64,000 nucleotides of DNA from positions 62,001 to 126,000 of the forward strand of contig JANXVZ010000006.1 in NCBI GenBank assembly GCA_025351405.1. Reading direction: 5' to 3'. The notes below the pieces were generated by a model. The model saw only the letters and a program-made list of their open reading frames with translations. It searched no databases and was not told the origin of the DNA. The DNA is from Sphingomonadales bacterium. Its GTDB lineage: Bacteria > Pseudomonadota > Alphaproteobacteria > Sphingomonadales > Sphingomonadaceae. This document shows positions 5,495-62,402 of this stretch, one piece after another. Made by a program: the position numbers and the translations under genes. The stretch's first letter is position 1. Every line of letters starts with the position of its first letter.

Positions 5495-7310
5495 TCGCTC
5501 CATACGGCGGTTCTTCGCTGCGGGCGTTGCCGTCCTGGCGCTGGTGCCGGCAGCGGCAATGACGATGCAGGCGACGCAGGATACCCCTGTGTCGCGGCCA
5601 AAATCGCTGCTCCCCGATGCGCTCGATGCGCCGCCAGCGCCGGTTGCGGCGCCTATCGCGGCGCCTGTCGCGGCGCCTCCCGCTGCGGATGCGGCGAGCG
5701 GGCCGGCGGCAACCGGGGAGACCCCGGGCGCTGTTCCGGCACTGCCCTCGCTGTTGACGGGGGCGCCGACCAACCCGAGCGGGCCTGACCCGTTCGCAAC
5801 GGCGCAATCGGGCGGCGATATCCATATCCTCGGCCCGCTTTCGGTCGCCATGGGTGGCTATGGCATGGATCTGTTCGCCACTTCCAACGGGCCGTTCCTT
5901 GCGGCCCTTGCCAACCGCATTGCCGCGCCGGGGGCGTCGCGTTGGGGCAATATCCTCTTGCGCCGCGCCCTGCTCAGCGAAAGTGCCGCCCCGGTCAATA
6001 TCGCGCCGGCAGACTGGGCCGCGGCGCGGGCGCTGCTGTTGATGCACATCGGCGAAATCGACGGCGCCAAGGCGCTGGTCGATGCCGTGCCGGTCGATCG
6101 CTATACCCCGGCGCTGTACCGGGTGGCGGCTCAGGTGGCGCTGGCGGCGGCCGATATCGGTGGATTGTGTCCCATCGCCTCGACGGGCGTGGCATTGTCC
6201 AGGGATCCGTTGTGGAAGCTGGCCGTGGGCATGTGCGCTGCCATCCAGGGTGACGACATCACCTCGGCACGGGTCTTTGACGACCTGCGCGGCGATGAGG
6301 AAACGGTCGATGGCTTCGACGTCCGGCTGGGTGAGCGCGTTGCCACCATCTCGGGCGGTGCAGGCCGGGCCACCAACATCGAATGGTCGGAAGCGCCGCG
6401 CCTCACGCCGTATCGCTTTGGTGTTGCCACGGCAGCGGGGGTTGCGGTGCCGCCGGAAAAACTGGCGGAACTCGGTCCCGCACGTTTTGGCTGGCTGGTT
6501 CGTGCCGCGGGCGTGGCGCCGGAGGTGCGGCTGGTGTCGCTGCGCCCGGCTGCGGTCGCCGGCAGCGTTTCGGCGAGCGAACTGGTCAGCGGCATCACCG
6601 CGCTGTCGCCTGCCGAACCTGCCGAGGACAGCGCCGCCGGCCACCTCCGCACCGCCTTCGCCGGCGGCAGCGAAGGCGACCGCAGGAGCGCGTTGATGGC
6701 GATCTGGGCGTCGGGCGACGCTGCAGATGGCCGCTATGGCGCCCTGATCGAATCAGCGATGGCCGCGGCACGACTGCCGGTCAGCGCCGACAGTGTCGCG
6801 CAAAGCGCTGATATCATCGCGGCGCTCCTGTCGATCGGTGATCTCGACGGGGCGCGCCGTTGGTGGCCGGTTGCCGACAAGGCCGAGGGCAAGGTGCGCG
6901 CCAGGGCGTGGGCCCTGCTCGCCACTGGCGCCGCCATGGGCAGCGCCAGCGGGTTCAGCGTCGATCTGTCCGCCTTCAAGGATTGGCGATCCGCCGCAGC
7001 TGCCGACCCGCGCCACGCAGCCTTGTTGATGGCGGGCCTTGCCGGCCTCGGCATCGCGAAGGGCAGCGAGTGGGACGGCGTGCGCGCCGAGCTCATTCCC
7101 GCATCCGCCACCAGCTGGAGCCGCGCCATCGACGCAGCGGCCACCGCCGGGCGCGGCGGCGAGGTCGCCATCCTCGCGGCCACGGGCATGCAGGGCGGCT
7201 GGCGTGATGTGCCGCCGCTCCACCTCGCCCATATCGTTGCAGCGCTCGTCAAGGTCGGTCGTGGCGAGGAAGCGCGGCTGATCGCGGCGGAGGCGATGAC
7301 CCGGGGATGA
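5475..7310 (+). CDS. exported Ala-rich protein of unknown function
   Basis: A 611-residue protein with a signal peptide (RSIRRFFAAGVAVLALV, cleavage near AAAM). It has a Pro/Ala-rich linker at about residues 45-85 with repeated APIAAPVAAP. A long, mostly helical region rich in Ala, Leu and Asp follows and resembles degenerate tetratricopeptide-like solenoids. I do not recognise a catalytic motif. It overlaps the 46-residue peptide gene upstream and ends in an ATGA overlap with xerD, so these three genes probably form one transcript. Its role is unknown; a periplasmic scaffold is only a guess. Confidence 0.75.
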   Translation: MPLPSHNRSIRRFFAAGVAVLALVPAAAMTMQATQDTPVSRPKSLLPDALDAPPAPVAAPIAAPVAAPPAADAASGPAATGETPGAVPALPSLLTGAPTNPSGPDPFATAQSGGDIHILGPLSVAMGGYGMDLFATSNGPFLAALANRIAAPGASRWGNILLRRALLSESAAPVNIAPADWAAARALLLMHIGEIDGAKALVDAVPVDRYTPALYRVAAQVALAAADIGGLCPIASTGVALSRDPLWKLAVGMCAAIQGDDITSARVFDDLRGDEETVDGFDVRLGERVATISGGAGRATNIEWSEAPRLTPYRFGVATAAGVAVPPEKLAELGPARFGWLVRAAGVAPEVRLVSLRPAAVAGSVSASELVSGITALSPAEPAEDSAAGHLRTAFAGGSEGDRRSALMAIWASGDAADGRYGALIESAMAAARLPVSADSVAQSADIIAALLSIGDLDGARRWWPVADKAEGKVRARAWALLATGAAMGSASGFSVDLSAFKDWRSAAAADPRHAALLMAGLAGLGIAKGSEWDGVRAELIPASATSWSRAIDAAATAGRGGEVAILAATGMQGGWRDVPPLHLAHIVAALVKVGRGEEARLIAAEAMTRG

Positions 7311-31329: not shown

Positions 31330-31831
31330 GCCGCAGGGCCCAGACTGGTTGCAGCCCGTCCGCAGCCTTTTGATAAACATAGGGATAGCGTTCAAGCGTC
31401 AACTTGACGACGCTCAGGTCGAGCGGCTTGGCCGGTGCAAAACTGTCGAAACCGACGCGGCGCATGAAACCGATCTGATCGACCAGCACATCACCCGCGG
31501 CACGGATTTCGCCGGTAAACCCCGCTTCTCGCAGCATCCGCGCGGCGGAATAGCCGCGGCCATCGCGGAATTTGGGGAACGCCACTTCGATCAGCCGCAA
31601 GCGCCCCAGATGCGGGATGAGCGACCGTGCATCGTCTGCCGGGTCGAGGCGCACTGCAGCGGCATTGCCATCGGCGAGGAAATCGGCAAGCGGCGACAGC
31701 GGCCCGTCGTCGGGCGCATCGCTGCGGAAGCGCAACAGCGCCGGGGTGTCGTCGAGCGGCGGTGCAGCGGCATTGCCGACGGCAACCTGGTCCTGCCCGT
31801 CGGCTGATGCGACGCGGTCATGATTACCCAT
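31322..31831 (-). CDS. DUF934 protein of the sulfite reductase operon
   Basis: A 169-residue DUF934 family protein, always found beside sulfite reductase and cysH in alphaproteobacteria and presumed to assist sulfite reduction. LIPHLGRLRLIEVAFPKFRDGRGYS and AGFTGEIRAAGDVLVDQIGFMRRVGFDSF are the conserved core. The ATG at 31831 lies inside the last codons of the sulfite reductase gene (8-nt overlap), and the frame upstream of it is non-coding. Its biochemical role is unknown. Confidence 0.88.
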   Translation of the reverse strand: MGNHDRVASADGQDQVAVGNAAAPPLDDTPALLRFRSDAPDDGPLSPLADFLADGNAAAVRLDPADDARSLIPHLGRLRLIEVAFPKFRDGRGYSAARMLREAGFTGEIRAAGDVLVDQIGFMRRVGFDSFAPAKPLDLSVVKLTLERYPYVYQKAADGLQPVWALRHG

Positions 31832-33464
31832 ATACGGCTTCCTTGAACGGGGCGGCACCGAGCCGCCGATAGGTATCGAGGAACCGTTCCGACGGGTTGG
31901 TCCGCGCGCTGCGATAAAAAGCGATGAGCTTGTCGACGGCGCCGACAATGCCCTCGGCATCGAACCCCGGCCCGAGGATCTTTGCCAGCGATGCGTCTTC
32001 GGCACCCGAACCGCCGAGCAGCAGCTGATACGCCTCCTCGCCCTTCTTATCGACCCCGAGGATGCCGATATGCCCGGCGTGGTGGTGGCCGCAGCCGTTG
32101 ATGCAGCCCGATACCTTGATCTTCAATTCGCCAAGGTCGCGCTGTTGTTCGATATCATTCTCGAACTTGGCCGCGATCTTCTGGGCAATCGGGATCGAAC
32201 GGGCGTTTGCCAGCGTGCAATAGTCCATGCCGGGGCAGACGATGATATCGGTGACCAGATCGAGGTTCGGCGTCGCCAGGTCGGCAGCATCCAGCGCTTG
32301 CCAGACGGCGTAAAGATCAGCCTTGCGAACGTGTGCCAGAACGAGGTTCTGGCTGTGCGTCACGCGGATCTCGTCCTGCGCGTATTTTTTCGCGAGGTCG
32401 GCGATCACGTCCATCTGCGCCGATGAGGCATCGCCCGGGATCCCCGCCTTTGGCTTGAGGCTGATCGTGGCGATGGCATAGCCAGGCTGTTTGTGGGCAT
32501 GGACATTCTGGCTCACCCAGGCCGCGAAATCGGGGTCCGACAGGTCGAGCGTGTCGGGCGCCGCCAGGTCATAGGTCGGCTCGGCGAACTGCGCGATGAT
32601 GCGGTCATACTCCGCCTTGGGAGCATCGAGACCGAGCGGCTCGAGCAGCGCCCATTCTGCTTCCACCTGCCTGGTGAATTCGACAATGCCAAGCTCGTTG
32701 ACGAGGATCTTGATCCGCGCCTTGTAGATATTGTCGCGACGGCCATAGCGGTTATAAACCCGGAGGATCGCTTCGGAATAGCTCATGAACTGACCGACCG
32801 GGATGAACTCGCGCACCACTTGCCCGATGATCGGCGTGCGGCCCATGCCGCCACCGACATAGACACGAAAGCCCAGCGCGCCGCTTTCGTCCTTGCGCAG
32901 TTGCAGTCCGATATCGTGAAGCTGGATGGCGGCACGATCGGTCTCGCTCGCAATCACTGCGATCTTGAACTTGCGCGGCAGGAAGGAAAATTCCGGGTGC
33001 AGCGTCGACCATTGGCGCAGCAGTTCGGCATAGGGGCGCGGGTCGGCCAGCTCATCGGCCGCAGCGCCTGCAAACTGGTCCGAACTGATGTTGCGGATGC
33101 AGTTGCCGCTGGTCTGGAAGGCGTGCATCTCCACCTTCGACAGATCGTCGAGCAGGTCCGAAAACTGTTCCAGCTTGATCCAGTTGTACTGGATGTTCTG
33201 GCGGGTGGTGAAATGGCCGTAGTCGCGGTCATACTTGCGGGCGATGTGCGCCAGCATCCGCATCTGTACACCCGACAGGGTGCCGTACGGCACGGCGACC
33301 CGCAGCATATAGGCGTGTAGCTGGAGATAAAGGCCGTTCATCAGCCGCAGCGGCTTGAATTCGTCCTCCGTGATCTCGTTGCGCAGGCGGCGGCCGACCT
33401 GTTCCTTGAACTCGGCGACACGGGCGTCGACGATGGCCTGGTCATATTGGTCGTAACGATACAT
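31824..33464 (-). CDS. cysI: siroheme-dependent nitrite/sulfite reductase
   Basis: A 546-residue hemoprotein that reduces sulfite to sulfide with six electrons. Near the C-terminus, CPGMDYC (C-x5-C) and GCINGC (C-x3-C) bind the siroheme and 4Fe-4S cluster. YGHFTTRQNIQYNW and VGGGMGRTPIIG belong to the parachute and siroheme domains. It begins in a 1-nt overlap (TGATG) with DUF2849. Its siroheme is probably supplied by the CobA-type enzyme two genes upstream. Confidence 0.93.
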   Translation of the reverse strand: MYRYDQYDQAIVDARVAEFKEQVGRRLRNEITEDEFKPLRLMNGLYLQLHAYMLRVAVPYGTLSGVQMRMLAHIARKYDRDYGHFTTRQNIQYNWIKLEQFSDLLDDLSKVEMHAFQTSGNCIRNISSDQFAGAAADELADPRPYAELLRQWSTLHPEFSFLPRKFKIAVIASETDRAAIQLHDIGLQLRKDESGALGFRVYVGGGMGRTPIIGQVVREFIPVGQFMSYSEAILRVYNRYGRRDNIYKARIKILVNELGIVEFTRQVEAEWALLEPLGLDAPKAEYDRIIAQFAEPTYDLAAPDTLDLSDPDFAAWVSQNVHAHKQPGYAIATISLKPKAGIPGDASSAQMDVIADLAKKYAQDEIRVTHSQNLVLAHVRKADLYAVWQALDAADLATPNLDLVTDIIVCPGMDYCTLANARSIPIAQKIAAKFENDIEQQRDLGELKIKVSGCINGCGHHHAGHIGILGVDKKGEEAYQLLLGGSGAEDASLAKILGPGFDAEGIVGAVDKLIAFYRSARTNPSERFLDTYRRLGAAPFKEAVYG

Positions 33465-33751
33465 CAGATGCTTTCCACGGAAATGTCGGGGCGCCCAAGA
33501 TCGGCGCGCACGCTGGGGCCAAACGCCCGCACCCTCTCCCGAGTGGTGCGCGGACGCCAGCCCTGGCTGCTGGGCTCTGCCTCGATGAGGACAGGATCGT
33601 TGATGCGCTCCTCGGCCGTCAGCCGGGCGACAAGCTCTTCACCTTCGTCGCCGATTGCCACCGCGTCGCGGATCGACAGGCTCCAGTCGCTGCCATTCCA
33701 ATAGAGGACGTCGCCGGTTTCAAGGCGGTTGCCGGTCAATATGCGGGGCAT
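33464..33751 (-). CDS. DUF2849 protein
   Basis: A 95-residue DUF2849 protein, typical of alphaproteobacterial cysG-cysI operons. TGNRLETGDVLYWNG and WSLSIRDAVAI are its signature; RERVRAFGPSVR is close to the end. The start at 33751 gives a 16-nt overlap with cobA. The function is unknown, presumed to be linked to sulfite or nitrite reduction. Confidence 0.88.
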   Translation of the reverse strand: MPRILTGNRLETGDVLYWNGSDWSLSIRDAVAIGDEGEELVARLTAEERINDPVLIEAEPSSQGWRPRTTRERVRAFGPSVRADLGRPDISVESI

Positions 33752-34515
33752 GGAAGCGCTTTCGTGAGGGCGTTCAGGGCTGAAAGTTCGCCGAGTCGGG
33801 CAACGTCGCCGACAACGATAAGGGCAGGTGACTGGACCGACTCTCGCGATACCATGCCGCCGAGATCGGCAAGCAGCGAGCGGAGCACACGCATTGTCGG
33901 AAGGGTCGCACGCTCGATGACGGCGACCGGCGTGTCCGGCGCAAGCCCGTCGGCGATCAGTTTCTCGGCGATGCGTTCGGCACCGGTGACGCCCATGTAG
34001 ATCACGAGCGTGCGACCCTTGCCGGCCAGGCCGACCCAGTTCTGCGCTGCAAGGCCGCGACATTCACCGGCGACAAAGCTGACGACCGATGCATGGTCGC
34101 GATGCGTCAGCGGCATCTGCGCCGCCGCGGCCGCGCCAAGCGCTGCAGAAACACCCGGGATGATATCAACACGCACACGCGCGGCGTTGCAGGCCTCGAC
34201 CTCCTCACCGCCGCGGCCGAAGATGAACGGATCACCACCCTTGAGCCGGACAACGACATGGCCAGCCTGCGCTTCGGCGACGAGCAGCCTGCCGATATCG
34301 GTCTGGTCCATGATGTGGCGGTCGCGGCGCTTGGCAACCGAGACGAGCCGCGCGCCGGCGGGCACCAATGCCATGACATCGGCACCGACGAGACCGTCAT
34401 GGACGACGACATCGGCAGTGGCGAGCACCGCTGCGGCACGCATCGTCAGCAGATCGGCGGCACCAGGGCCGGCCCCGACCAGCCATACGCGACCATTGTC
34501 TGCCTTGTTCTCCAT
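33736..34515 (-). CDS. cobA: uroporphyrinogen-III C-methyltransferase
   Basis: A protein of about 259 residues that adds two SAM-derived methyl groups to uroporphyrinogen III, giving precorrin-2 for siroheme and cobalamin. GAGPGAADLLTMRA and VVRLKGGDPFIFGRGGEEVEA are diagnostic. It is the CobA-type domain alone, without the CysG dehydrogenase/ferrochelatase half. A GTG at 34524 is an alternative start. As first gene of the operon it makes siroheme precursor for the sulfite reductase. Confidence 0.92.
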   Translation of the reverse strand: MENKADNGRVWLVGAGPGAADLLTMRAAAVLATADVVVHDGLVGADVMALVPAGARLVSVAKRRDRHIMDQTDIGRLLVAEAQAGHVVVRLKGGDPFIFGRGGEEVEACNAARVRVDIIPGVSAALGAAAAAQMPLTHRDHASVVSFVAGECRGLAAQNWVGLAGKGRTLVIYMGVTGAERIAEKLIADGLAPDTPVAVIERATLPTMRVLRSLLADLGGMVSRESVQSPALIVVGDVARLGELSALNALTKALPCPAY

Positions 34516-34641
34516 CTTCGTCACTTACGCTCGGCACCCGTCAAAGCGCCAGATGCTGCGGTGCAACGCTTTCTTGGGGATGGCCTAGCCGGGATTGCCC
34601 AGTCGACTGATAGGATTTGCCGATACGCCCGCCAAGAACGC

Positions 34642-34668
34642 CGCCGGGGACATTGGGTGCCCCCGGCG
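34642..34668. terminator. hairpin between cobA and rne
   Basis: CGCCGGGG and CCCCGGCG pair over an 11-nt loop. The T-run (CCTTTT) follows on the plus strand, while the gene before it, rne, is on the minus strand, so termination efficiency for rne is doubtful. It lies directly after the rne stop. Confidence 0.4.
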
Positions 34669-34678
34669 CGCCTTTTGA

Positions 34679-37501
34679 TCAGCCGAACGTACGCTGCCAC
34701 CAACCCTTGCGGGTCGACGAACCACTTTCAGACACAGCGGCGACGTCCGGCGCCTTGGCCGTCTCGACCGTGGCCGGGGTGAGGGCGGCGGCCTTGGCGG
34801 GGGAATCTTCCCGCGCCACGGTCCGCGCTGCCTTGGCTGGTTCTGCCCTGTCCTGAGCGGGCTTGACTTGAGCCGGCTTGAGCTCAGCAGGCGTGACCGG
34901 CGCTGGCTTGGCCGCAGCGACCTTGGCTGTGGACTTCACCGCCGCCTTTGCCACGACCTTTTCAGCAGTCGCGCCGGTGCTCTTTGCGGACGGCTTGCGC
35001 GCTGAAGCGGCCTTGGCCTTTGCCGGCGCTTTCGTCGTCTTGACAGCCGCATCCCGTTCGGTCGCAGCGGGCATTGCCGGTGCGACATCGGCCTTTGCCT
35101 TGCGCGGAGCCCGCTTCGGCTTTTCGAGCGTCGCGGCGTCCAGCGGCGCACTCTCGACAACGACAGCAGAAGCCCGGCGCGACTTGCGAACCGGCCGTTC
35201 AGCGACTGCTTCGGTCGCAACCACCTCTACCGGTTCCGGCGCAGCGCCTTCGACGGCAGCAGCCTTGCGACGACGGGGCGCGCGCCTGGACTTGCCTTCA
35301 TCGACGCCGACGTCTTCGACCTTGGCGACGGCGGTGACCCGCGGCGGCGCGGCGGCCTCGTCGGTGGGGGCATCGGCGCTTGCCTCGATGCCCACATCCA
35401 ACCCGGCATCGTCACGACCACCTTCACGCTTGCCGCCGCGGCGTCCACGACGACGGCGCTTGCGATCGCCACGTTCGCGTTCGCCCCGCGCATCGGTTCC
35501 CGCATCGCCGCCATCGGTCGCGGCATCGACGTCCGCCGTGGCTGCAGCATCGGCAGACACTTCACCGTCGGCAGCGCGCGTTTCATCGGGCCGTGCATCG
35601 TCAGGTCGTGTATCATCCTTGTCGCGGCCGCGACCACGGCGGCGGCGCTTGTTGCGACCACTGCGCTCGGACCCTTCGGCGCGCGGCGCACGGTCACCGG
35701 CGGCGCGCGGCGACCGCGCTTCGCCCTCCTCGCCTTCGTCGTCGAATTCGTCCTCGATATCGTCCGGGTCATCCTCGATTCGCACCGGAGCCGGCAGGGC
35801 GCGCATCTCGACCTTCTTGGTCGGAGGCGGTCCATTGGCATCGACAATGAAATTGGGCCCGATCAGCGATTCATCGGGCACCGTGACGATGGTGACGCCG
35901 TAAAGTTCCTCGAGTTCGGCAAGTTCGATACGCTTGCGATTGAGAATATAGACTGCAACCTCTTCGCCGGCGCGCAGGGTGAATTCGCTGGTACGACCGC
36001 GCAGGGCTTCGGCTTCGAGGGCGCGCAAGGCTGCGAGGGCTGCGGAAGCGACCGAGCGCACCATGCCGGTGCCTTCGCACATCGGGCAAATATGCGTGGA
36101 GGCCTCCAGGATGCCGGTACGCAGCCGCTGCCGGCTCATTTCCATGAGGCCGAACGCGGAGATGCGGCCGATCTGGACGCGGGCGCGATCATTCTTCAGC
36201 GCCTCCTTCATCTGGCGCTCGACGCGGCGGACGTTGGCGGAAACTTCCATGTCGATGAAATCGATGACTACAAGCCCCGCCATGTCGCGGAGCCGCAGCT
36301 GGCGACCGACTTCATCGGCGGCTTCAAGGTTGGTCTTGGTTGCGGTTTCCTCGATGCCATACTCGCGGGTCGAACGCCCGGAGTTGACGTCGATCGAGAC
36401 AAGCGCTTCGGTCGGGTTGATGACGATATAGCCACCGGATTTGAGCTGGACGACCGGCTGGTACATGCCCTCCAGCTGCGCCTCGACGCCAAAACGCTGA
36501 AACAGCGGCACATTATCGGAATATTCGACCACCTTCGGGCCGTGTCCAGGCATCAGCATGGCCATGAAGCGCGAGGCGTCGGCGAAACCCTCCGCGCCTT
36601 CGACTAGCACCTGCTCGATATCGCGGTGATAGATGTCGCGGACCGCACGCTTGATCAGGTCGGAATCCTGATGGATCAGCGCCGGCGCCGATGACGAAAG
36701 GGTCTTTTCCCGAATTTCGTCCCACAGCCGGGTCAGATAATCGAAATCGCGGCGAATGTCCTCGGACGAGCGCTTCAGGCCGGCGGTGCGGACAATGGCA
36801 CCCATGCCGGCCGGCAGCTTCAAGTCTGCCATGATGGTCTTCAAGCGCCGGCGATCGGCGAGGTTCGAAATCTTGCGGCTGATGCCGCCGCCGTGCGCCG
36901 TATTGGGCATCAGCACGCAATAGCGGCCGGCGAGTGACAGATAGGTGGTCAACGCCGCCCCCTTGGAGCCCCGCTCTTCCTTGACGACCTGGATCAGCAG
37001 CACCTGGCGGCGGCGGATGACCTCCTGGATCTTGTAGCGGCGACGCAGCGACTGGCGCTTGCGGCGCAGCGCATCGGTAGGCTCGTCATGCTGGCCGCCC
37101 GTTTCCGCGAGCTCGCCGGTCGATTCGCTGCGTTCGTCGCCGCCGTCGTCTTCGGCATGCTCGTCGTGTTCGCCATCATGATCGCCGTCGTGATCGCCAT
37201 CATGGTCGCTGGCGAACTCCGCCTCCTCGCGCAGCAGCGCCTCGCGGTCTTCGCGCGGGATCTGGTAGTAATCCGGGTGGATTTCCGAAAAGGCGAGGAA
37301 CCCGTGGCGGTTGCCGCCATATTCGACAAATGCGGCCTGGAGGGAAGGCTCGACCCTGGTGACCTTGGCGAGGTAGATATTGCCCTTGAGCTGCTTCCTG
37401 TCGGCAGCCTCGAAATCAAACTCCTCGATGCGTTGTCCGTTGACCACGGCGACCCGGGTTTCCTCCGGGTGGCGGGCATCGATCAGCATACGTAGTGACA
37501 T
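34679..37501 (-). CDS. rne: ribonuclease E/G
   Basis: A 940-residue endoribonuclease of mRNA decay and rRNA processing. The S1 RNA-binding domain (about 35-185) is interrupted by a His/Asp/Glu-rich insert (about 95-135). The catalytic core has DVNSGR and VIDFIDME (metal-binding aspartates) and the Zn-link CPMCEGTG. After about residue 560 comes a long low-complexity Arg/Asp then Lys/Ala-rich tail, the presumed degradosome scaffold, ending GWWQRTFG. The start matches the family (MLIDARHPEETRVAVV). It is preceded by a 471-nt gap. Confidence 0.95.
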   Translation of the reverse strand: MSLRMLIDARHPEETRVAVVNGQRIEEFDFEAADRKQLKGNIYLAKVTRVEPSLQAAFVEYGGNRHGFLAFSEIHPDYYQIPREDREALLREEAEFASDHDGDHDGDHDGEHDEHAEDDGGDERSESTGELAETGGQHDEPTDALRRKRQSLRRRYKIQEVIRRRQVLLIQVVKEERGSKGAALTTYLSLAGRYCVLMPNTAHGGGISRKISNLADRRRLKTIMADLKLPAGMGAIVRTAGLKRSSEDIRRDFDYLTRLWDEIREKTLSSSAPALIHQDSDLIKRAVRDIYHRDIEQVLVEGAEGFADASRFMAMLMPGHGPKVVEYSDNVPLFQRFGVEAQLEGMYQPVVQLKSGGYIVINPTEALVSIDVNSGRSTREYGIEETATKTNLEAADEVGRQLRLRDMAGLVVIDFIDMEVSANVRRVERQMKEALKNDRARVQIGRISAFGLMEMSRQRLRTGILEASTHICPMCEGTGMVRSVASAALAALRALEAEALRGRTSEFTLRAGEEVAVYILNRKRIELAELEELYGVTIVTVPDESLIGPNFIVDANGPPPTKKVEMRALPAPVRIEDDPDDIEDEFDDEGEEGEARSPRAAGDRAPRAEGSERSGRNKRRRRGRGRDKDDTRPDDARPDETRAADGEVSADAAATADVDAATDGGDAGTDARGERERGDRKRRRRGRRGGKREGGRDDAGLDVGIEASADAPTDEAAAPPRVTAVAKVEDVGVDEGKSRRAPRRRKAAAVEGAAPEPVEVVATEAVAERPVRKSRRASAVVVESAPLDAATLEKPKRAPRKAKADVAPAMPAATERDAAVKTTKAPAKAKAASARKPSAKSTGATAEKVVAKAAVKSTAKVAAAKPAPVTPAELKPAQVKPAQDRAEPAKAARTVAREDSPAKAAALTPATVETAKAPDVAAVSESGSSTRKGWWQRTFG
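37172..37207. repeat. 12-bp repeat in rne encoding Asp-His-Asp-Gly
   Basis: Three 12-bp units (GCCATCATGATC-like) in tandem at 37172-37183, 37184-37195 and 37196-37207 encode three DHDG repeats in RNase E, within a wider acidic/His stretch (EHDEHAEDD). Such a motif could bind metal ions and could vary in number between strains by slippage. Confidence 0.8.
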
Positions 37502-37972
37502 TGTTGGGCTCCATGGCGCGGCGGGCTCGGCCTGAAAGGCGCAAGCGGGGGCGCATATGCGGGGTGCCAGCGGCGCGGAAGGGCGCGCGCTGGAAAGATT
37601 TTGGCGAAATGATGCAATGATTGTCGGAGCGCGAATCGCCAGTCGATGCCGGCCATGCCCGGTCGGCCCGAAGGGCGTTCCCGGCTGGACAAATTGGCAT
37701 CAGGCTCATCGCACCCCTTAGGCAAAGACGGCCAATGTTGTGGCCGGTCGGCAAGTTTCGCGGGCGACTTCGCCAAACACCGTCTGGGCAGACGACAGGA
37801 CAAAGACCCGGGAAAGGCAACAGCCAAGCTGTCGCAATGATATGACTAGCAGTGTAGATGCGGGGCGGCAAGAGTGCTGGCGTTCAACGCGGATGGGGCC
37901 GCACCTTGCCGGTGCAGCCCCAATTTTTCCGCTAGCGCGACATGGCCTCCCGCGTGGAGGCCGGGCGTTTGA
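37502..37972. other. 471-nt intergenic region between rpsD and rne
   Basis: The longest gene-free stretch of the window. It includes the probable 5' leader and promoter of rne, a perfect GGCCTCC/GGAGGCC hairpin at 37944-37962 behind rpsD and a plus-strand intrinsic terminator at 37895-37928. I see no convincing protein frame; a 74-codon plus-strand frame at 37621 has no family features. RNase P RNA and tmRNA signatures were looked for and not found. Confidence 0.6.
37895..37928 (+). terminator. plus-strand intrinsic terminator without an obvious gene
   Basis: GGGGCCGCACC and GGTGCAGCCCC pair in 10 of 11 positions over a TTGCC loop and are followed by AATTTTT on the plus strand. On the minus strand, used by rpsD and rne, no T-run follows. 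The form is that of a rho-independent terminator for rightward transcription, but no plus-strand gene precedes it. Confidence 0.6.
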
Positions 37973-38584
37973 TTAGCGCGAATAGAATTCGACGACGAGG
38001 TTGGGTTCCATCTTCACCGGATAGGGAACTTCATCGAGCGAGGGCACGCGGACATATGAGGCCTTGGGGCCGTCGACGGCGACATATTCCGGCACTTCAC
38101 GCTCGGTGAGGCCCTGCGCTTCCATGACCAGGGCCATTTCCTTGGCCTTGGCGCCCAATTCAATGGTGTCGCCCGGCGACAGCTTGGCGGATGCAATGTT
38201 GCAGCGCTTGCCGTTCACGAGGATGTGGCCGTGGTTGACGATCTGGCGGGCGGCAAAGATCGTCGGCGCAAACTTGGCGCGATAGACGACCATGTCGAGG
38301 CGCTGTTCGAGAAGCCCGATGAGATTCTGCGAGGTATCGCCCTTCATGCGGACAGCGGCATCATAGATGCTGCGGAACTGCTTTTCGGTGACGTCGCCGT
38401 AATAGCCCTTGAGCTTCTGCTTGGCCTTCAACTGGATGCCGAAGTCCGAAACCTTGCTCTTGCGGCGCTGGCCATGCTGGCCGGGGCCGTATTCGCGCTT
38501 GTTGACCGGCGACTTGGGGCGACCCCAGATATTTTCGCCCATGCGGCGATCGAGTTTGTACTTGGAACTGTGGCGTTTGCTCAT
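37973..38584 (-). CDS. rpsD: 30S ribosomal protein S4
   Basis: A 203-residue ribosomal protein S4, which binds 16S rRNA early in small-subunit assembly. The N-terminus [30 protein letters not shown] is characteristic, and the S4 domain ([37 protein letters not shown]) is clear. In alphaproteobacteria rpsD is usually monocistronic, as here. Confidence 0.98.
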
Positions 38585-38815: not shown

Positions 38816-39157
38816 ATGGCGCGCGTTACCGTCGAAGATTGCGTCGACAAGATCCCCAATCGCTTCGACCTGGTGCTGCTTGCCGCAACCCGCGCCCGCG
38901 CCATCTCGAGCGGCGCCGAAATCCTCGTCGATCGCGACCGTGACAAAAACCCCGTTGTCGCCCTGCGTGAGATCGCCGACGAGATGATCAAGCCGGCGGA
39001 TCTCAAGGAAGCGCTTACCCAGTCGATGCAGCGCGTCGTCGCCAATGAAGACGATACGCCCGATGCCATCGGCTCCCTGTCGGCATCGGCCGAAGCGTTG
39101 CGGATCACGGCGGCCCAGCCGCCGCGCAACCAGAACCTCGGTCCCGACTACGAATAG
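38816..39157 (+). CDS. rpoZ: RNA polymerase omega subunit
   Basis: A 113-residue omega subunit, which helps assemble RNA polymerase and can be a ppGpp site. [31 protein letters not shown] and REIADE are family marks. It stands divergent from rpsD; the usual neighbour in many bacteria is the RelA/SpoT gene, which here lies 1.9 kb downstream, separated by the two cytochrome genes. Confidence 0.97.
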
Positions 39158-39158
39158 C

Positions 39159-39188
39159 CGGGCGCGGCCGCTGCTGGCGGCGTGCCCG
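39159..39188. terminator. imperfect hairpin after rpoZ
   Basis: CGGGC and GCCCG enclose a second CCGC/GCGG pairing over TGCTG. It follows the rpoZ stop immediately and ends one base before the FNR-like box, so it may separate rpoZ transcription from the cytochrome promoter. No T-run follows. Confidence 0.35.
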
Positions 39189-39202
39189 TTGACCCAGATC
39201 AA
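39189..39202. promoter_or_regulatory. FNR/FixK-type binding site upstream of the cytochrome operon
   Basis: TTGACCCAGATCAA matches the FNR/FixK consensus TTGAT-N4-ATCAA in all but one position. Its centre (39195.5) is 41.5 nt before 39237. A TAGAAA at 39225-39230 would be a suitable -10 for a start at about 39237, the classical geometry of class II FNR-activated promoters. The ATG of the porin-cytochrome is at 39254. I infer activation at low oxygen. Confidence 0.6.
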
Positions 39203-39253
39203 GGTGACCCCTCGGACTTGAAGCTAGAAACCGGCTCCTGAGGGAGCCCGGCC

Positions 39254-40663
39254 ATGCCTTTGAACACTGCAGGTTTGCACGATCAGCGGCCCGAAGGCGA
39301 TGCTCGCCAGGGCAATTTGCGCAGGCACGCCGTCGCCGCGTCCGTGTCGCGCGTCATGCGCCTTGTCGTGGCGGCGCAATTGGGAGCGGCAGCGTTGCCT
39401 GCAGCGGCGGTGCCGAGCTTTGCAGCCCAGACAGGCCAGCCCTGCACAGCCTGCCACGTTGGCGGTTTCGGCCCGCAACTGACCGCATTTGGCCGCAGTT
39501 TCAAGATCGGCGGCTACACCAATCGCGTCGTGCCCTTCAACGTGCCGATTTCGGCGCAGGTCGTCGCATCCTATCTGCACACACGGCTTGATCAATCGGC
39601 GCCGCCGACGCCTGATTTTCACGTCAACAACAATCTGGCGCTCGACCAGGTCGGGCTGTTTCTTGCGGGCGGCGTGGGCAGCCATTTCGGCGGTTTTGCC
39701 CAGGTTACCTATGATGGCGTCGGCAAAGCCTGGTCGTGGGACAATCTCGACCTGCGCGCGGTCACCACGACGACAATTGCCGGCACCGACGCCGTCGTCG
39801 GGATCAGCTTGAACAATTCGCCGGCGACGCAGGATCCGTGGAATACGCTGCCCGCCTGGGGCTTCCCTTACACCGGTTCCGCTATCGCGCCGTCGCCCGC
39901 GGCTGCGCCGCTGTTCGTCGGCGGGCTGGCGCAGAACGTGCTGGGATTGACGGCCTATGCATGGCTCGATTCAAAATTCTATGTCGAAGCCGGCGGCTAT
40001 CGCACACCCACGACGGGAACGCTGAGGTGGCTGGGTGCCGATCCCTATTCGCCCGGCGACATACTCGGCGTCGCGCCCTATGCGCGGCTGGCCTATCAGC
40101 GCAGCCTGGGGGGCGGCGATCTTGAAATCGGCGCCTTCCTGCTCCGCGCCAGCCTTCACCCGGGCCGCGATGCCACGACCGGTACGCGTGACCGATACTC
40201 CGATATCGGCGCGGATGCCTCCTACATCCTGCCGCGCGCCAATGGCGATGTCGCAACGCTCAACGCGCGGTATATCCACGAATCATCACAGCTCGATGCC
40301 TCCTACGCCCTTGGCAACACGAGCTTTGCCTCCGGCACCATGAACGACTGGCGAATCGACGGGTCCTATTATTGGCGCAACGCCATCGGCGCCACGGTCG
40401 GCTGGTTCGACACTTCGGGATCGACCGATCCCCTGCGCTTTGGCGGCCGCACCGGGCGGCCCGACAGCAGCGGCGTCCTGCTCCAGCTCGACGGCACGCC
40501 ATTTGGCGAGGGATCCCCCGTCGGTCGCTGGTTCAACGTCAGGATGGGTGTGCAATACACGATCTACACGCGCTTCGACGGCGCCGGGACGGATTTTGAC
40601 GGCCTTGGCACCAACGCCAGCGCCAACAACACGCTGAGGATCTTTACATGGCTCGCATTCTGA
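39254..40663 (+). CDS. outer-membrane cytochrome c-porin fusion, Cyc2-like
   Basis: A 469-residue protein. AGGGAG 7 nt before the ATG fixes the start, giving a long signal sequence (hydrophobic about 35-55, RLVVAAQLGAAALPAAA). Right after it comes PSFAAQTGQPCTACH (heme motif CTACH at 64-68) and then LTAFGRSFKIGGYT, the motif of the fused monoheme cytochrome-porin family that includes Cyc2, the outer-membrane Fe(II) oxidase of iron oxidisers. The rest is about 380 residues of alternating, Gly/aromatic-rich strands ending IFTWLAF with a terminal Phe, as in outer-membrane barrels. It probably passes electrons across the outer membrane to the cytochrome encoded next, with a 16-nt overlap. Many non-iron-oxidising bacteria have relatives, so the substrate is unproven. 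Confidence 0.8.
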   Translation: MPLNTAGLHDQRPEGDARQGNLRRHAVAASVSRVMRLVVAAQLGAAALPAAAVPSFAAQTGQPCTACHVGGFGPQLTAFGRSFKIGGYTNRVVPFNVPISAQVVASYLHTRLDQSAPPTPDFHVNNNLALDQVGLFLAGGVGSHFGGFAQVTYDGVGKAWSWDNLDLRAVTTTTIAGTDAVVGISLNNSPATQDPWNTLPAWGFPYTGSAIAPSPAAAPLFVGGLAQNVLGLTAYAWLDSKFYVEAGGYRTPTTGTLRWLGADPYSPGDILGVAPYARLAYQRSLGGGDLEIGAFLLRASLHPGRDATTGTRDRYSDIGADASYILPRANGDVATLNARYIHESSQLDASYALGNTSFASGTMNDWRIDGSYYWRNAIGATVGWFDTSGSTDPLRFGGRTGRPDSSGVLLQLDGTPFGEGSPVGRWFNVRMGVQYTIYTRFDGAGTDFDGLGTNASANNTLRIFTWLAF

Positions 40664-41007
40664 TCGCAGCTGCCCTGGTCCTTGCCGCAGGGCCGGCTAT
40701 TGCCGATCCCGTCGCCGGGCAAAAAGCCTTCCAGTCGCAATGCGCGATTTGCCATGCCGTCGTCGCGGGCAGCAAGAAGATCGGACCGAGCCTGTTCGGC
40801 GTCGTCGGGCGCCAATCGGGAACGGTGCCGGGTTTTGCCTACAGCACGGGGATGGCGGCGGCCAAGCTGGTCTGGACCTCGTCGACTCTCGACACCTATC
40901 TCGCGGCGCCGGCAAAACTGGTGCATGGCACCAAGATGGCCTTTGCCGGCGTCGGCAAGCCTGCCCAGCGTAGCGATGTCATCGATTATCTCGCCACGCT
41001 GAAATAG
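40648..41007 (+). CDS. periplasmic class I cytochrome c
   Basis: A 119-residue exported cytochrome c: signal peptide at 1-19 (ILIAAALVLAAGPAIA), heme motif CAICH at 32-36 and Met97 in GTKMAFAG as the axial ligand. VGRQSGTVPGFAYSTGM is typical of mitochondrial-type/c2 cytochromes. GAGGA 7 nt before the ATG supports the start, inside the last codons of the porin-cytochrome gene. It is the natural periplasmic electron carrier for the fusion protein, and would pass electrons to or from an oxidase, bc1 complex or reaction centre encoded elsewhere. Confidence 0.93.
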   Translation: MARILIAAALVLAAGPAIADPVAGQKAFQSQCAICHAVVAGSKKIGPSLFGVVGRQSGTVPGFAYSTGMAAAKLVWTSSTLDTYLAAPAKLVHGTKMAFAGVGKPAQRSDVIDYLATLK

Positions 41008-41010
41008 CCT

Positions 41011-41034
41011 TTGCAGCCCTGCACCGGGCTGCAA
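41011..41034. terminator. strong hairpin after the cytochrome operon
   Basis: TTGCAGCCC and GGGCTGCAA form a perfect 9-bp stem with a TGCACC loop, 3 nt after the cytochrome stop. There is no T-run, so it may stabilise the mRNA 3' end or act with Rho. Confidence 0.45.
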
Positions 41035-41078
41035 CACATGCCGCGCTTGCGCCGCGGCCTTCTGCGACCCACTATCGG

Positions 41079-43184
41079 ATGATGTTGCGCCAGTATGAAC
41101 TTGTCGAACGCGTAAAGGCGTATGATCCGGATGCCGACGAAGACCTGCTGAACCGCGCTTATGTCTTCTCCATGAAAGCGCATGGCAGCCAGTTGCGTGC
41201 CAGCGGTGACCCCTATTTCAGCCATCCGATCGAAGTCGCCGGCATCCTGACCGACCTGAAACTCGACGACGAGACCATCGCGACCGGCATCCTCCATGAC
41301 ACCATCGAGGACACCGTCGCCACCCAGGAACAGATCGACCGGCTGTTCGGCAAGAACGTCGGTCGGCTGGTCGACGGCGTCACCAAGCTTTCGAAAATCG
41401 AGGCGCAGACCGACAGCGAGCGCCAGGCCGAGAACCTGCGCAAATTCCTCCTTGCCATGTCGAACGACATTCGCGTGCTGCTGGTCAAGCTGGCCGATCG
41501 ACTGCACAACATGCGGACGCTCCATCACATCAAGTCCGATGCCAAGCGGCTGCGCATCGCGCGCGAAACGATGGATATCTACGCCCCACTTGCCGAACGG
41601 ATCGGCATGTACAGCTTCATGGACGAGTTGCAGGAGCTGGCTTTTCGCGAGCTGGAGCCGGAAGGCCATGCGACGATCACGGCGCGTCTCGCCAAGCTGC
41701 GGGAGGGCGGCGGTGACCTGGTGGCGCGCATTGCGTCGGGTATGAAGCTGGTCCTGGCGCAAAAGGGCATCGACGCTGAAGTGACCGGCCGCGAAAAACG
41801 TCCATACTCGATCTGGCGCAAGATGCAGGGCCGCCAGATGAGCTTCGAGGCGCTGCCCGATGTCATGGCATTTCGCATCATCGTCGACGACGAGGCTGAA
41901 TGTTACCGCGCGCTGGGTGTCATCCACGGACGCTGGCCGACCGTCATCGGCCGCTTCAAGGACTTCATATCGACGCCCAAGCGCAACGGCTACAAGAGCA
42001 TCCACACCACCGTGCTGCATGGCGAGAACAGCCGCATCGAGGTGCAGATACGCACCAGGCGCATGCATGAGGAAGCAGAAAACGGCCTTGCCGCGCATTG
42101 GGCCTATAAACAGGGCGACGAGGGCAGCGGCGCCCGCGAGGCCTATCCCTGGCTCGAAGATCTGCTCGACGTGCTCCACGACGCGGCCAGTCCCGAGGAG
42201 TTGCTGGAAAACGCCCGGCTGGCGATGTTCCAGGATCAGGTTTTCGTCTTCACCCCCAAGGGCGCTTTGCACCAGTTGCCCAAGGATTCCACCCCGGTCG
42301 ACTTCGCCTATGCCGTCCATTCCGACCTGGGCGACAGCTGCGTCGGCGCCAAGGTCAACGGACGCGTCGTGCCGCTGCGTACCCGGCTGACCAATGGCGA
42401 CCAGGTCGAGATCTTGCGGTCAAAGGTCAAGGCGCCCGATCCCGCCTGGGCCGGCTTCGTCGCCAGCGCCAAGGCGCGCGCCGCCGTGCGCCGCCATGTC
42501 CGCCAAAAGACTCGCGAGGAAAGCCTCGCCATGGGCAGCAAGCTGCTCGAATCGCTTGGATTGCGGCTGAAAGTCAACCTTGACGACAATATGGTCGCAC
42601 CGGCGCTGGCGCGGCTGAAGCTGCCCGATCGCACCGCGTTGATGCTGGCGATGGCGAGCAACGCCCTGACCGATGCGCAGGTATCGGAGGCGCTGGTGCC
42701 AGGCTCCACCGCCGGCCAGAAACCGGCGCGCAAGCGCGGCAAGCCGGGGCCCGCGGCAATTTCCATCCATGGCCTGACTGCCGGCGTGGCATTCGAGCTC
42801 GGCGCCTGTCATCCGATCCCGGGCGACCGCATCGTCGGCATCCGCCACGCGGGTAAGCCGATCGTCATCCACACCATCGATTGCACGAGCCTTGCGGAGG
42901 AGGATGGCGAATGGCTGGAAGTGTCATGGGGCGACGAGACCGAGGGCGCCGCCGCGCAACTCGCGATTGTCGTCCATAACCAGCCCGGCGCCCTTGCCGC
43001 CATGGCGGCGGTGCTCGCCACCCACAATGCCAACATCGTGAACTTCCGCCTGAAGCATCGCGACCGCGAATTCCACACCGATATCATCGACATCGAAGTC
43101 GAGGACCTGAAACACCTGACCCGCATCATTGCCGCGCTGCGAACCTTGCAGGCGGTGGTTTCGGTGGAACGGGTGCGGGGTTAA
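41079..43184 (+). CDS. rsh: bifunctional (p)ppGpp synthetase/hydrolase (RelA/SpoT)
   Basis: A 701-residue stringent-response enzyme. The HD hydrolase domain has HPIEVAGILTDL and HDTIED; the synthetase domain has RMKxGYKSIHTTV-like NGYKSIHTTV and EVQIRT; then TGS (VFVFTPKGALHQLPKDSTPVDFAY) and a C-terminal ACT domain (IVVHNQPGALAAMAAVLA). An intact HDTIED suggests both activities, as expected when a species has one long Rsh protein. It lies downstream of the cytochrome operon and close to rpoZ. Confidence 0.95.
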   Translation: MMLRQYELVERVKAYDPDADEDLLNRAYVFSMKAHGSQLRASGDPYFSHPIEVAGILTDLKLDDETIATGILHDTIEDTVATQEQIDRLFGKNVGRLVDGVTKLSKIEAQTDSERQAENLRKFLLAMSNDIRVLLVKLADRLHNMRTLHHIKSDAKRLRIARETMDIYAPLAERIGMYSFMDELQELAFRELEPEGHATITARLAKLREGGGDLVARIASGMKLVLAQKGIDAEVTGREKRPYSIWRKMQGRQMSFEALPDVMAFRIIVDDEAECYRALGVIHGRWPTVIGRFKDFISTPKRNGYKSIHTTVLHGENSRIEVQIRTRRMHEEAENGLAAHWAYKQGDEGSGAREAYPWLEDLLDVLHDAASPEELLENARLAMFQDQVFVFTPKGALHQLPKDSTPVDFAYAVHSDLGDSCVGAKVNGRVVPLRTRLTNGDQVEILRSKVKAPDPAWAGFVASAKARAAVRRHVRQKTREESLAMGSKLLESLGLRLKVNLDDNMVAPALARLKLPDRTALMLAMASNALTDAQVSEALVPGSTAGQKPARKRGKPGPAAISIHGLTAGVAFELGACHPIPGDRIVGIRHAGKPIVIHTIDCTSLAEEDGEWLEVSWGDETEGAAAQLAIVVHNQPGALAAMAAVLATHNANIVNFRLKHRDREFHTDIIDIEVEDLKHLTRIIAALRTLQAVVSVERVRG

Positions 43185-61358: not shown

Positions 61359-62402
61359 ATGGCTTACAAGATCGTCGTCGTCGGTGCGACCGGCAATGTC
61401 GGGCGCGAGATGCTCAATATCCTCGCCGAGCGCCAGTTTCCGCTTGCCGACATCGCGGCAGTGGCAAGCGGCCGTTCGACTGGCGACATGATCGATTTTG
61501 GGGATTCCGGCCGTGAACTCAAGGTTCAGAACCTGGAGCATTTCGATTTTTCGGGTTGGGACATGGCATTGTTCGCTGCCGGGTCCGGGCCGTCGAGGAT
61601 CTATGCACCAAAGGCCGCTGCCGCCGGGTGCACGGTCATCGACAACTCGTCGCTGTTCCGCATGGAGCCCGATGTGCCGCTCATCGTTCCCGAGGTGAAC
61701 CCCGAAGCGATCGACCGCTATAAAAAGCGCAATATCATCGCCAACCCGAACTGTTCGACTGCGCAGATGGTCGTGGCCTTGAAGCCGCTGCACGATGCCG
61801 CCGGCATCAAGCGCGTCGTCGTCTCCACCTACCAATCCGTGTCGGGTGCCGGCAAGGAAGGCATGGACGAGCTGTTCGAGGAATCACGGGCCGTTTTCGT
61901 CGGCGATGCCCTGGTGCCGCGCAAGTTCACCAAGCAGATCGCCTTCAACGTCATCCCGCATATCGACAGCTTTGTCGGGCCCGACAGCGGCTATGACGGC
62001 TACACCAAGGAAGAGCTGAAGATGGCGCAGGAGACCCACAAGATCCTGTCGCCGGACATCCAGGTCACCGCCACATGTGTCCGCGTGCCGGTGTTCGTTG
62101 GCCACTCCGAGGCCATAAATATCGAATTCGAACGCCCGATCTCGGTCAAGGAAGCCCAGGCGATCCTGCGCGAATCCCCCGGTATCATGCTCTTCGACAA
62201 GCGCGAGGACGGTGGCTACATCACGCCGATCGAGTGCGTCGGCGAATACGCCACCTATATCAGTCGCGTCCGCAAGGACCCGACCGTGCCGCATGGCCTG
62301 GCGCTGTGGTGCGTGTCGGACAATCTACGCAAGGGTGCCGCGCTTAACGCCGTACAGATTGCCGAATTGCTTGGGCGGCGGCACCTCAAGAAGGCGGCGT
62401 AG
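61359..62402 (+). CDS. asd: aspartate-semialdehyde dehydrogenase
   Basis: A 347-residue Asd that makes aspartate semialdehyde for lysine, diaminopimelate, threonine and methionine. VVVGATGNVGREML binds NADP; NPNCST has the catalytic Cys; CVRVPVFVGHSEAINIEFE is the late signature. CAGGAGAG before the ATG decides the start. Confidence 0.97.
   Translation: MAYKIVVVGATGNVGREMLNILAERQFPLADIAAVASGRSTGDMIDFGDSGRELKVQNLEHFDFSGWDMALFAAGSGPSRIYAPKAAAAGCTVIDNSSLFRMEPDVPLIVPEVNPEAIDRYKKRNIIANPNCSTAQMVVALKPLHDAAGIKRVVVSTYQSVSGAGKEGMDELFEESRAVFVGDALVPRKFTKQIAFNVIPHIDSFVGPDSGYDGYTKEELKMAQETHKILSPDIQVTATCVRVPVFVGHSEAINIEFERPISVKEAQAILRESPGIMLFDKREDGGYITPIECVGEYATYISRVRKDPTVPHGLALWCVSDNLRKGAALNAVQIAELLGRRHLKKAA

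Follow-up and report, generated by a model that had tools for sequence, protein, structure and literature searches.

A Cyc2-like cytochrome-porin variant that lacks the signature arginine, with an overlapping cytochrome c gene, in a sphingomonad genome

The locus described here raises the question of whether two overlapping genes in a sphingomonad, a bacterium not expected to be an iron specialist, encode an electron conduit of the Cyc2 type. The cyc2 gene is a marker for microbial iron oxidation, and the rule in print that requires an arginine upstream of the heme site would miss the branch to which this locus belongs. The genes lie in a stretch of 64,000 nucleotides (the window; positions 62,001 to 126,000 of contig JANXVZ010000006.1, assembly GCA_025351405.1), and coordinates below are window positions on the forward strand unless stated otherwise. 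The genome (3.02 Mb, 48 contigs, 98% complete) carries the Cyc2-like gene in one copy.

The two-gene cassette fills a 1,921-bp gap (39158–41078) between rpoZ, encoding RNA polymerase omega (38816–39157; Pfam PF01192), and a gene for a spoT/relA-type (p)ppGpp enzyme (41079–43184; Pfam PF04607 and others). Behind an intergenic segment (39158–39253) with a GAGGGAG-like ribosome site just 5′ of ATG 39254, the larger ORF extends from 39254 to 40663 and encodes 469 amino acids from that start or 435 from ATG 39356; the former start has the better ribosome site, and the latter gives an ordinary short signal peptide. The likely signal peptide core, MRLVVAAQLGAAALPAA, was assigned by eye (39356–39406). 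The mature protein starts AVPSFAAQTGQPCTACHVGGFGPQLTAFGRSFKIGGYT after the likely cleavage point, after which 380 residues run to a C-terminal Phe, and its CTACH heme c attachment site (39443–39457) begins at residue 13. The ORF thus reads as the preliminary description had it, with CTACH after a signal peptide and about 380 barrel-like residues ending in Phe. Searched at E ≤ 10, the large protein matches nothing in Pfam or NCBIfam, and at the same threshold neither it nor its profile matches a PDB sequence. Homologues with conserved columns along the whole barrel indicate that this is no chance ORF. On the reverse strand at 31824–38584, ORFs read by eye presumably encode a sulfite/nitrite reductase, a siroheme synthase, an RNase E-type protein and ribosomal protein S4.

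The second gene (40648–41007) encodes a 119-residue protein with a signal peptide assigned by eye and one CxxCH (CAICH, 40741–40755). It matches PF00034 with 34 bits against a cut-off of 21.3, and bases 40648–40663 are common to both ORFs, confirming that the next gene encodes a class I cytochrome c in overlapping codons; the product would be a periplasmic monoheme protein. A candidate ribosome site, TGAGG (40635–40639, by eye), lies inside the 3′ end of the barrel gene. The cytochrome ATG opens the 16-base overlap and is made up of the third-base A of one barrel codon and the TG of a Trp codon.

The features that define Cyc2 have been set out in print. The available text of Keffer et al. 2021 (PMC8406198) gives AXPXFAR[Q/K][T/Y] as unique to Cyc2, places PXL 4 amino acids downstream of the heme site and describes a published set of 1,593 Cyc2 sequences from which those without PXFAR[Q/K][T/Y] were removed. 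The window protein has a single N-terminal CxxCH after its by-eye signal peptide, PQL five residues on from the heme site, and a length (435–469 residues) and 16 predicted strands that agree with the Cyc2 standard of a 16-strand porin fold and at least 365 residues. Upstream of the heme, it reads AVPSFAAQT, with Ala (codon 39425–39427) for Arg and the remaining specified positions fitting; the counterpart of PXFAR[Q/K][T/Y] is PSFAAQT (39413–39433).

The fold was predicted with AlphaFold2 from a five-sequence alignment. The model contains 16 strands spanning mature residues 48–417 (39548–40657, last residue Phe), with a mean pLDDT of 57 and a pTM of 0.66. In ten-residue blocks, pLDDT is about 50–60 in the first strands and mostly 65–79 in the later ones; residues 1–40 score 27–30, making the modelled heme segment unreliable. 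Foldseek matched the model to porins (best E 2.4e-09). VIA-align also returned porins, at Z 19–22 in the best 50 rows, with OprO and OprP at Z 20–21 and ranks 3, 7 and 9. These two porins are described as structural analogues of Cyc2 in the available text of PMC8406198. Since general porins score as high as OprO and OprP, the model shows a 16-strand porin fold and no specific kin. As to whether the protein is a barrel at all, which the preliminary description had left to a predictor, the structure prediction gives a 16-strand barrel and not a barrel-less fold.

Relatedness to Cyc2 was also probed by sequence comparison. Three proteins with the full Cyc2 motif (L008, L011, L013) are 35–38% identical to the window protein, with tblastn E values of 1e-57 to 4e-54; the homology threshold in the available text of Keffer et al. 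2021 (PMC8406198) is a blastp value of 1E-5. The window protein falls well within this cut-off in a comparison with proteins chosen by motif and not by biochemistry. Homologues align over their full length, with invariant residues all the way between the heme site and the final strand, and the full-length relatives among Cyc2-type proteins come from Pseudomonadota, Acidobacteriota and Verrucomicrobiota. Homologues that are 57–69% identical belong to three other sphingomonads (G026, L003 and the Polymorphobacter locus L007) and to a metagenome-assembled genome (MAG) named to phylum (L004); the nearest named records are a Sphingomonadales MAG (68%) and a Polymorphobacter megasporae megaplasmid (67%). 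The full-length Cyc2-type alignment, the 16 predicted strands and the porin matches, OprO/OprP among them, together uphold the reading of the protein as a Cyc2-like one-heme cytochrome-porin.

The position of the protein among Cyc2-type sequences was examined with a 50-row tree. Starting from 85 phylum matches, the tree took in 5 of the 63 genomes from one Mariprofundaceae-like family (f43) and 20 of the 22 others (G181 and G213 were left out). Also left out were the broken copy L097, the duplicate L009, L012 (in two pieces), a second partial piece in G1044, the Caballeronia SBC2 record, and L002, L090 and L091 as duplicate records of the same loci. Of Cyc2 clusters 1–3, the tree is anchored by rows of cluster 1 (Mariprofundaceae-like) alone. 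The window protein falls in a clade of 12 with support 100/100, made up of 11 alphaproteobacterial members and L004, and the same clade with the same support appears in a barrel-only tree of 43 rows, from which seven remote rows (L063, L064, L066–L070) were excluded. The surrounding branch of 23 rows, mostly with CHVGxFGPQL, is supported at 99/98 in the full tree and 82/94 in the barrel tree. A very long branch (2.59) separates the clade from the Cyc2 proteins of known iron oxidisers in cluster 1, and the window protein does not fall among the Mariprofundaceae-like rows.

All 12 clade members are without the motif Arg, the position being taken by A, E, I, V, M or D. Consequently, the published motif screen would have removed the clade. 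Both trees place three changes in the Arg state, in the 12-member clade, in a group of four (L105, L046, L058, L061) and in the Acidiphilium plasmid protein, and the best-supported branches alone force two. As Arg is present in the other 33 of the 50 rows, the remote cluster 1 rows included, repeated loss would be the simplest reading. CxxCH, PxL and Lys33 did not vary (43 of 43 rows). The preliminary assignment to Cyc2 therefore stands as to fold, full-length homology and gene partner, while the published signature fails at its Arg: the protein is outside Cyc2 by the published rule and works like Cyc2 on those three counts. It is best called a variant of the Cyc2-like cytochrome-porins. In the explanation that we favour, and hold probable taken as a whole, the Arg-less clade is a distinct, mainly alphaproteobacterial branch whose heme surroundings are unlike those of characterised Cyc2.

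What is conserved around the heme offers some insight into its ligation. CxxCH, PxL, Q8, P23, L25, Gly29, Phe32 and Lys33 (mature numbering) are invariant in all 43 aligned rows, and the invariant columns of the heme segment in these rows include no Met and no second His. Lys33 (39503–39505; seven remote rows excluded from the count) is the only invariant candidate and may be the distal heme ligand. Electron transfer by the A. ferrooxidans Cyc2 has reportedly been modelled by Jiang et al. in 2021.

The cytochrome partner was examined across the tree with a scan for a hydrophobic stretch before CxxCH, a rule that can miss genes and flags non-cytochromes (such as an opposite-strand ORF in L068). 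Within the 23-row branch, the scan placed a monoheme cytochrome c gene within 700 bp downstream of the barrel gene in 14 of 23 rows and a diheme gene in none; in eight rows the scan showed neither on that side, and the remaining row is at the end of its contig. The other 27 rows comprise 11 with a diheme partner (one of them upstream), three with a downstream monoheme gene (L010, L047, L057), one with a monoheme gene on the opposite strand (L100), and 12 in which none was found or the contig ends. On the barrel tree, where 27 rows were scored, partner type has to change three times; it appears to follow the branch largely. At L099, a HiPIP gene (6348–6668; PF01355 at 25.2 bits versus 22) is found next to the barrel gene in place of cytochrome c, hinting that the carriers may be exchangeable. 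Among plasmids, nine records matched; in all eight regions read, the homologue has a gene for a c-type cytochrome no more than 2 kb away.

The overlap of the two genes is itself conserved. A 16-base overlap is kept in seven of the 12 clade members (L001, L003, L004, L007, L065, L093, L095), which are all the members with a directly adjoining cytochrome c gene; of the remaining five, L045 has one at 678 bp, L092 lies at a contig end, L094 and L102 have none and L099 has the HiPIP. The wobble A that begins the cytochrome ATG is kept in 7/7 overlap loci, even though third positions in the window gene are 76% G+C; in the other five members it is present in L094 and L099 and absent in L045, L092 and L102. 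For two loci beyond the clade, L096 and L062, the scan likewise gave −16, but a later start looks as likely there and they were not counted. The overlap and the neighbouring cytochrome genes of relatives bear out the preliminary claim of a coupled cytochrome c partner. Across 15 loci, pairwise distances between barrels are correlated with those between partners (r 0.63, a value reached in 0 of 2000 shuffles), a result that shared ancestry alone can explain. Furthermore, three other class I cytochromes c in the genome are 41–46% identical to the partner, as close as the partners of some relatives, so the partner need not be a dedicated carrier. Mono- or diheme cytochromes beside Cyc2 have been reported in Acetobacteraceae (available text of PMC10715153), as has a c4 gene directly downstream of cyc2 in Acidithiobacillus and Ferrovum (available text of PMC10879576). 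The link between partner type and branch and the missing Arg were not found described in the accessible parts of the relevant literature.

The distribution of the gene is patchy. Of 98 relative genomes searched, two are positive, the window's own and G026 (58% identity), and within the genus the window's own genome is the one carrier among 24. Larger samples, each including the window's genome, were searched with a 12-sequence profile: carriers number 10 of 397 genomes in the family (the window's own and one broken copy, G702, counted), 13 of 385 in the class and 85 of 398 in the phylum, with 63 of the 85 in the family f43. The broken copy (L097, on contig C24 of G702, same family as the window) is interrupted by an in-frame stop, and its matched pieces contain no heme site, which suggests a decaying gene. 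Plasmids of Acidithiobacillus ferrooxidans YQ-N3 (L009) and Acidiphilium cryptum JF-5 (L010) show the same order and spacing of Cyc2-like and cytochrome c genes. The At. ferrooxidans match, which lies outside any rus operon, equals the A. cryptum plasmid copy in gene coordinates and match identity; this likeness could reflect either plasmid sharing across genera or a mixed culture.

The insertion-bearing rpoZ–spoT site was compared across the genus (L107–L128). In 17 of 23 other genomes, rpoZ lies near spoT within the 1.5-kb flank, and in the three whose rpoZ is 92–94% identical to that of the window, the rpoZ–spoT gap is about 169, 193 and 242 bp. The remaining six do not have rpoZ within 1.5-kb reach of spoT; these include G008, which has the nearest spoT (88%) and a different gene upstream. 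Some genomes hold rpsD or other genes inside the gap, which is a variable site in the genus, and none of the 23 loci has a match to cyc2 or its partner. Recent arrival as foreign DNA finds no support in base composition (G+C of 0.649 for the cassette, 0.651 for the window). The patchy spread and the plasmid copies would fit either horizontal gain or loss elsewhere.

The host encodes several possible end points for the electrons. PufL, PufM and the PufC tetraheme subunit (PF02276) are present (L136, L137, L138; G000:C23:1-20000), and by these genes the host is a phototroph with a type II reaction centre. Two COX1 proteins are also encoded, and cytochrome genes on contig C2 are ones that we take to be cbb3 subunits. 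The RuBisCO large chain was not found in the genome, whereas 5 of 14 control genomes were positive, and the search for the PioB/MtrB porin family (TIGR03509) gave no matches in the genome and likewise none in the control set. The reaction centre is found in 22 of the 24 genus genomes and is therefore background for this host; it is also found in the Polymorphobacter carrier (G576) and in G026. For co-occurrence counts, a non-carrier is a genome with no match at E ≤ 1e-5, the broken copy in G702 counts as a carrier, and G259 and G427 are not included. Of the 10 carriers in the family, 3 have a reaction centre (seven do not), compared with 26 of 57 non-carriers; outside the window's genus the counts are 2 of 9 and 5 of 34, and in the rest of the class, 0 of the 13 carriers searched. 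With no enrichment of reaction centres among carriers, the cassette has no tie to phototrophy, and photoferrotrophy as its general role was rejected. Photoferrotrophy by this host is possible, and the co-occurrence counts give no indication of it.

Taken together, these results suggest that the pair is probably a Cyc2-like conduit from a soluble outside donor, likely Fe2+, to the periplasmic cytochrome pool. The barrel protein would be exported and inserted in the outer membrane as a 16-strand barrel, with its N-terminal one-heme segment facing or plugging the periplasmic mouth, a heme position that follows the published model of Cyc2. A soluble one-electron donor entering the pore, most likely Fe2+, would reduce the barrel heme, and the translationally coupled monoheme cytochrome c would take the electron in the periplasm and hand it to the general c-type pool. 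From there it could pass to the two COX1-type terminal oxidases or, in the light, to the PufC–reaction centre. In a host in which RuBisCO was not detected, the cassette would add energy or remove Fe(II) and would not support Calvin-cycle autotrophy. Arguing for this reading are the full-length Cyc2 homology, the 16 predicted strands, the invariant CxxCH, PxL, Gly29, Phe32 and Lys33, the cytochrome genes near homologues, the partner type that goes by branch, the conserved overlap, the distance correlation, and the COX1, PufLM and PufC proteins of the host. Against it stand the missing motif Arg, the remoteness from cluster 1, the close paralogous cytochromes, the 5 of 12 clade members without an adjoining cytochrome c and the unreliable heme segment. 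We infer the electron flow, its direction, the donor, its step onto the heme and the acceptor, and likewise the hand-over of electrons by the partner to an oxidase or a reaction centre, so the "complete" outer-membrane-to-periplasm path of the preliminary description is not supported as worded.

Other roles for the pair have to be weighed against this one. The conduit could run outward, passing respiratory electrons to Fe(III) or oxidised humics at low oxygen. The available text of PMC10715153 assigns Cyc2 and Cyc1 isoforms to the ferric-reduction pathway of acidithiobacilli and names Acidiphilium, on whose plasmids Arg-less homologues occur, as a ferric reducer; the two COX1-type oxidases of the host and the lack of a cassette gene joining quinol to the carrier speak against this direction, which we consider unlikely. 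Alternatively, the pair might detoxify or sense Fe(II) or another redox metal, or gate solute entry with the heme as a switch. Such a non-respiratory role would suit a small accessory cassette that is patchy in the family (10 of 397) and is flanked by rpoZ and spoT and not by respiratory genes, and we rate it as quite unlikely given the conserved coupling to a diffusible carrier whose type is swapped among monoheme, diheme and HiPIP, a pattern that points to electron flow. It is more improbable by far that the protein is an ordinary substrate porin with an incidental CxxCH: porins do fill the structural matches listed, but CxxCH together with Q8, P23, L25 and K33 is invariant in 43 of 43 rows, and cytochrome genes adjoin many homologues.

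Phototrophy gives rise to two more specific proposals. A cassette that feeds the photosynthetic reaction centre, with external electrons moving through the partner and PufC to the special pair in a photoferrotrophy-like photoheterotrophy, would accord with PufL, PufM and PufC in the genome and with the reaction centres of G576 and G026. We regard this role as very doubtful, as the family shows no association (3 of 10 carriers versus 26 of 57 non-carriers), the reaction centre is genus background (22 of 24) and RuBisCO was not found in the genome. In a related proposal, to which we give little credence, a Sphingomonadales aerobic anoxygenic phototroph would draw electrons from Fe(II) or reduced humics via an Arg-less Cyc2-type porin into the c-type pool and on to a PufC-type II reaction centre, a route that would be neither Pio nor Fox and would involve no Calvin cycle. 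The idea of combining Cyc2 with purple-type phototrophy has already appeared in print, since the available text of PMC10715153 proposes Cyc2 in acidophilic and photosynthetic Acetobacteraceae. No Sphingomonadales Cyc2 sequence is described in the accessible text of literature naming both cyc2 and sphingomonads; a Sphingomonadaceae MAG belongs to a group of 11 that each carry one or more of a number of iron-oxidation genes, the gene being unspecified in the available text (PMC13055281).

The Arg-less branch has consequences for the use of cyc2 as a marker. Should its members oxidise iron, the tally of potential iron oxidisers ought to rise and the Arg would be dispensable; should they not, the Arg is of use in telling iron oxidases from look-alikes. 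The host is of added interest as a phototroph where electrons from outside could reach a reaction centre.

Comparison with known systems places the window pair more precisely. Cyc2 proteins of cluster 1, from Mariprofundus and further neutrophilic iron oxidisers, have in common with it a signal peptide, one CxxCH followed by P-x-L/I, an F-G-x-x-F-K-like segment and a barrel-size frame. In contrast to the window protein, cluster 1 has the Arg, is separated by the branch of 2.59 and is matched by the profile mainly in the N-terminal third; moreover, no downstream cytochrome gene was found in five Mariprofundaceae-like tree loci, whereas the window has one. PioAB and MtoAB share with the window pair the idea of an outer-membrane electron conduit. 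They consist, however, of a separate large porin and a multiheme (decaheme) cytochrome, as the available text of PMC8406198 describes (large porin and multiheme cytochrome), whereas the window protein has one fused heme and a predicted 16-strand barrel. The Cyc2-type proteins with a diheme partner of about 200–250 residues (L008, L013, L014, L051, L054 and others) resemble it in full-length alignment and in a nearby periplasmic cytochrome, but they possess the Arg and mostly read CH...FPELTPFGR/YGR in place of CHVGGFGPQLTxFGR. The Acidiphilium plasmid homologue (pACRY03 and relatives) also lacks the Arg (PAFAAQT) and has a downstream monoheme cytochrome c (503 bp), but it is about 35% identical, sits on a separate branch and underwent a separate Arg change on the trees. 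The homologue of Polymorphobacter megasporae is 67% identical, likewise lacks the Arg, shares the 16-base overlap with a monoheme cytochrome and comes from a genome with a reaction centre (G576); it is carried on a 907 kb plasmid, whereas the window copy lies between rpoZ and spoT.
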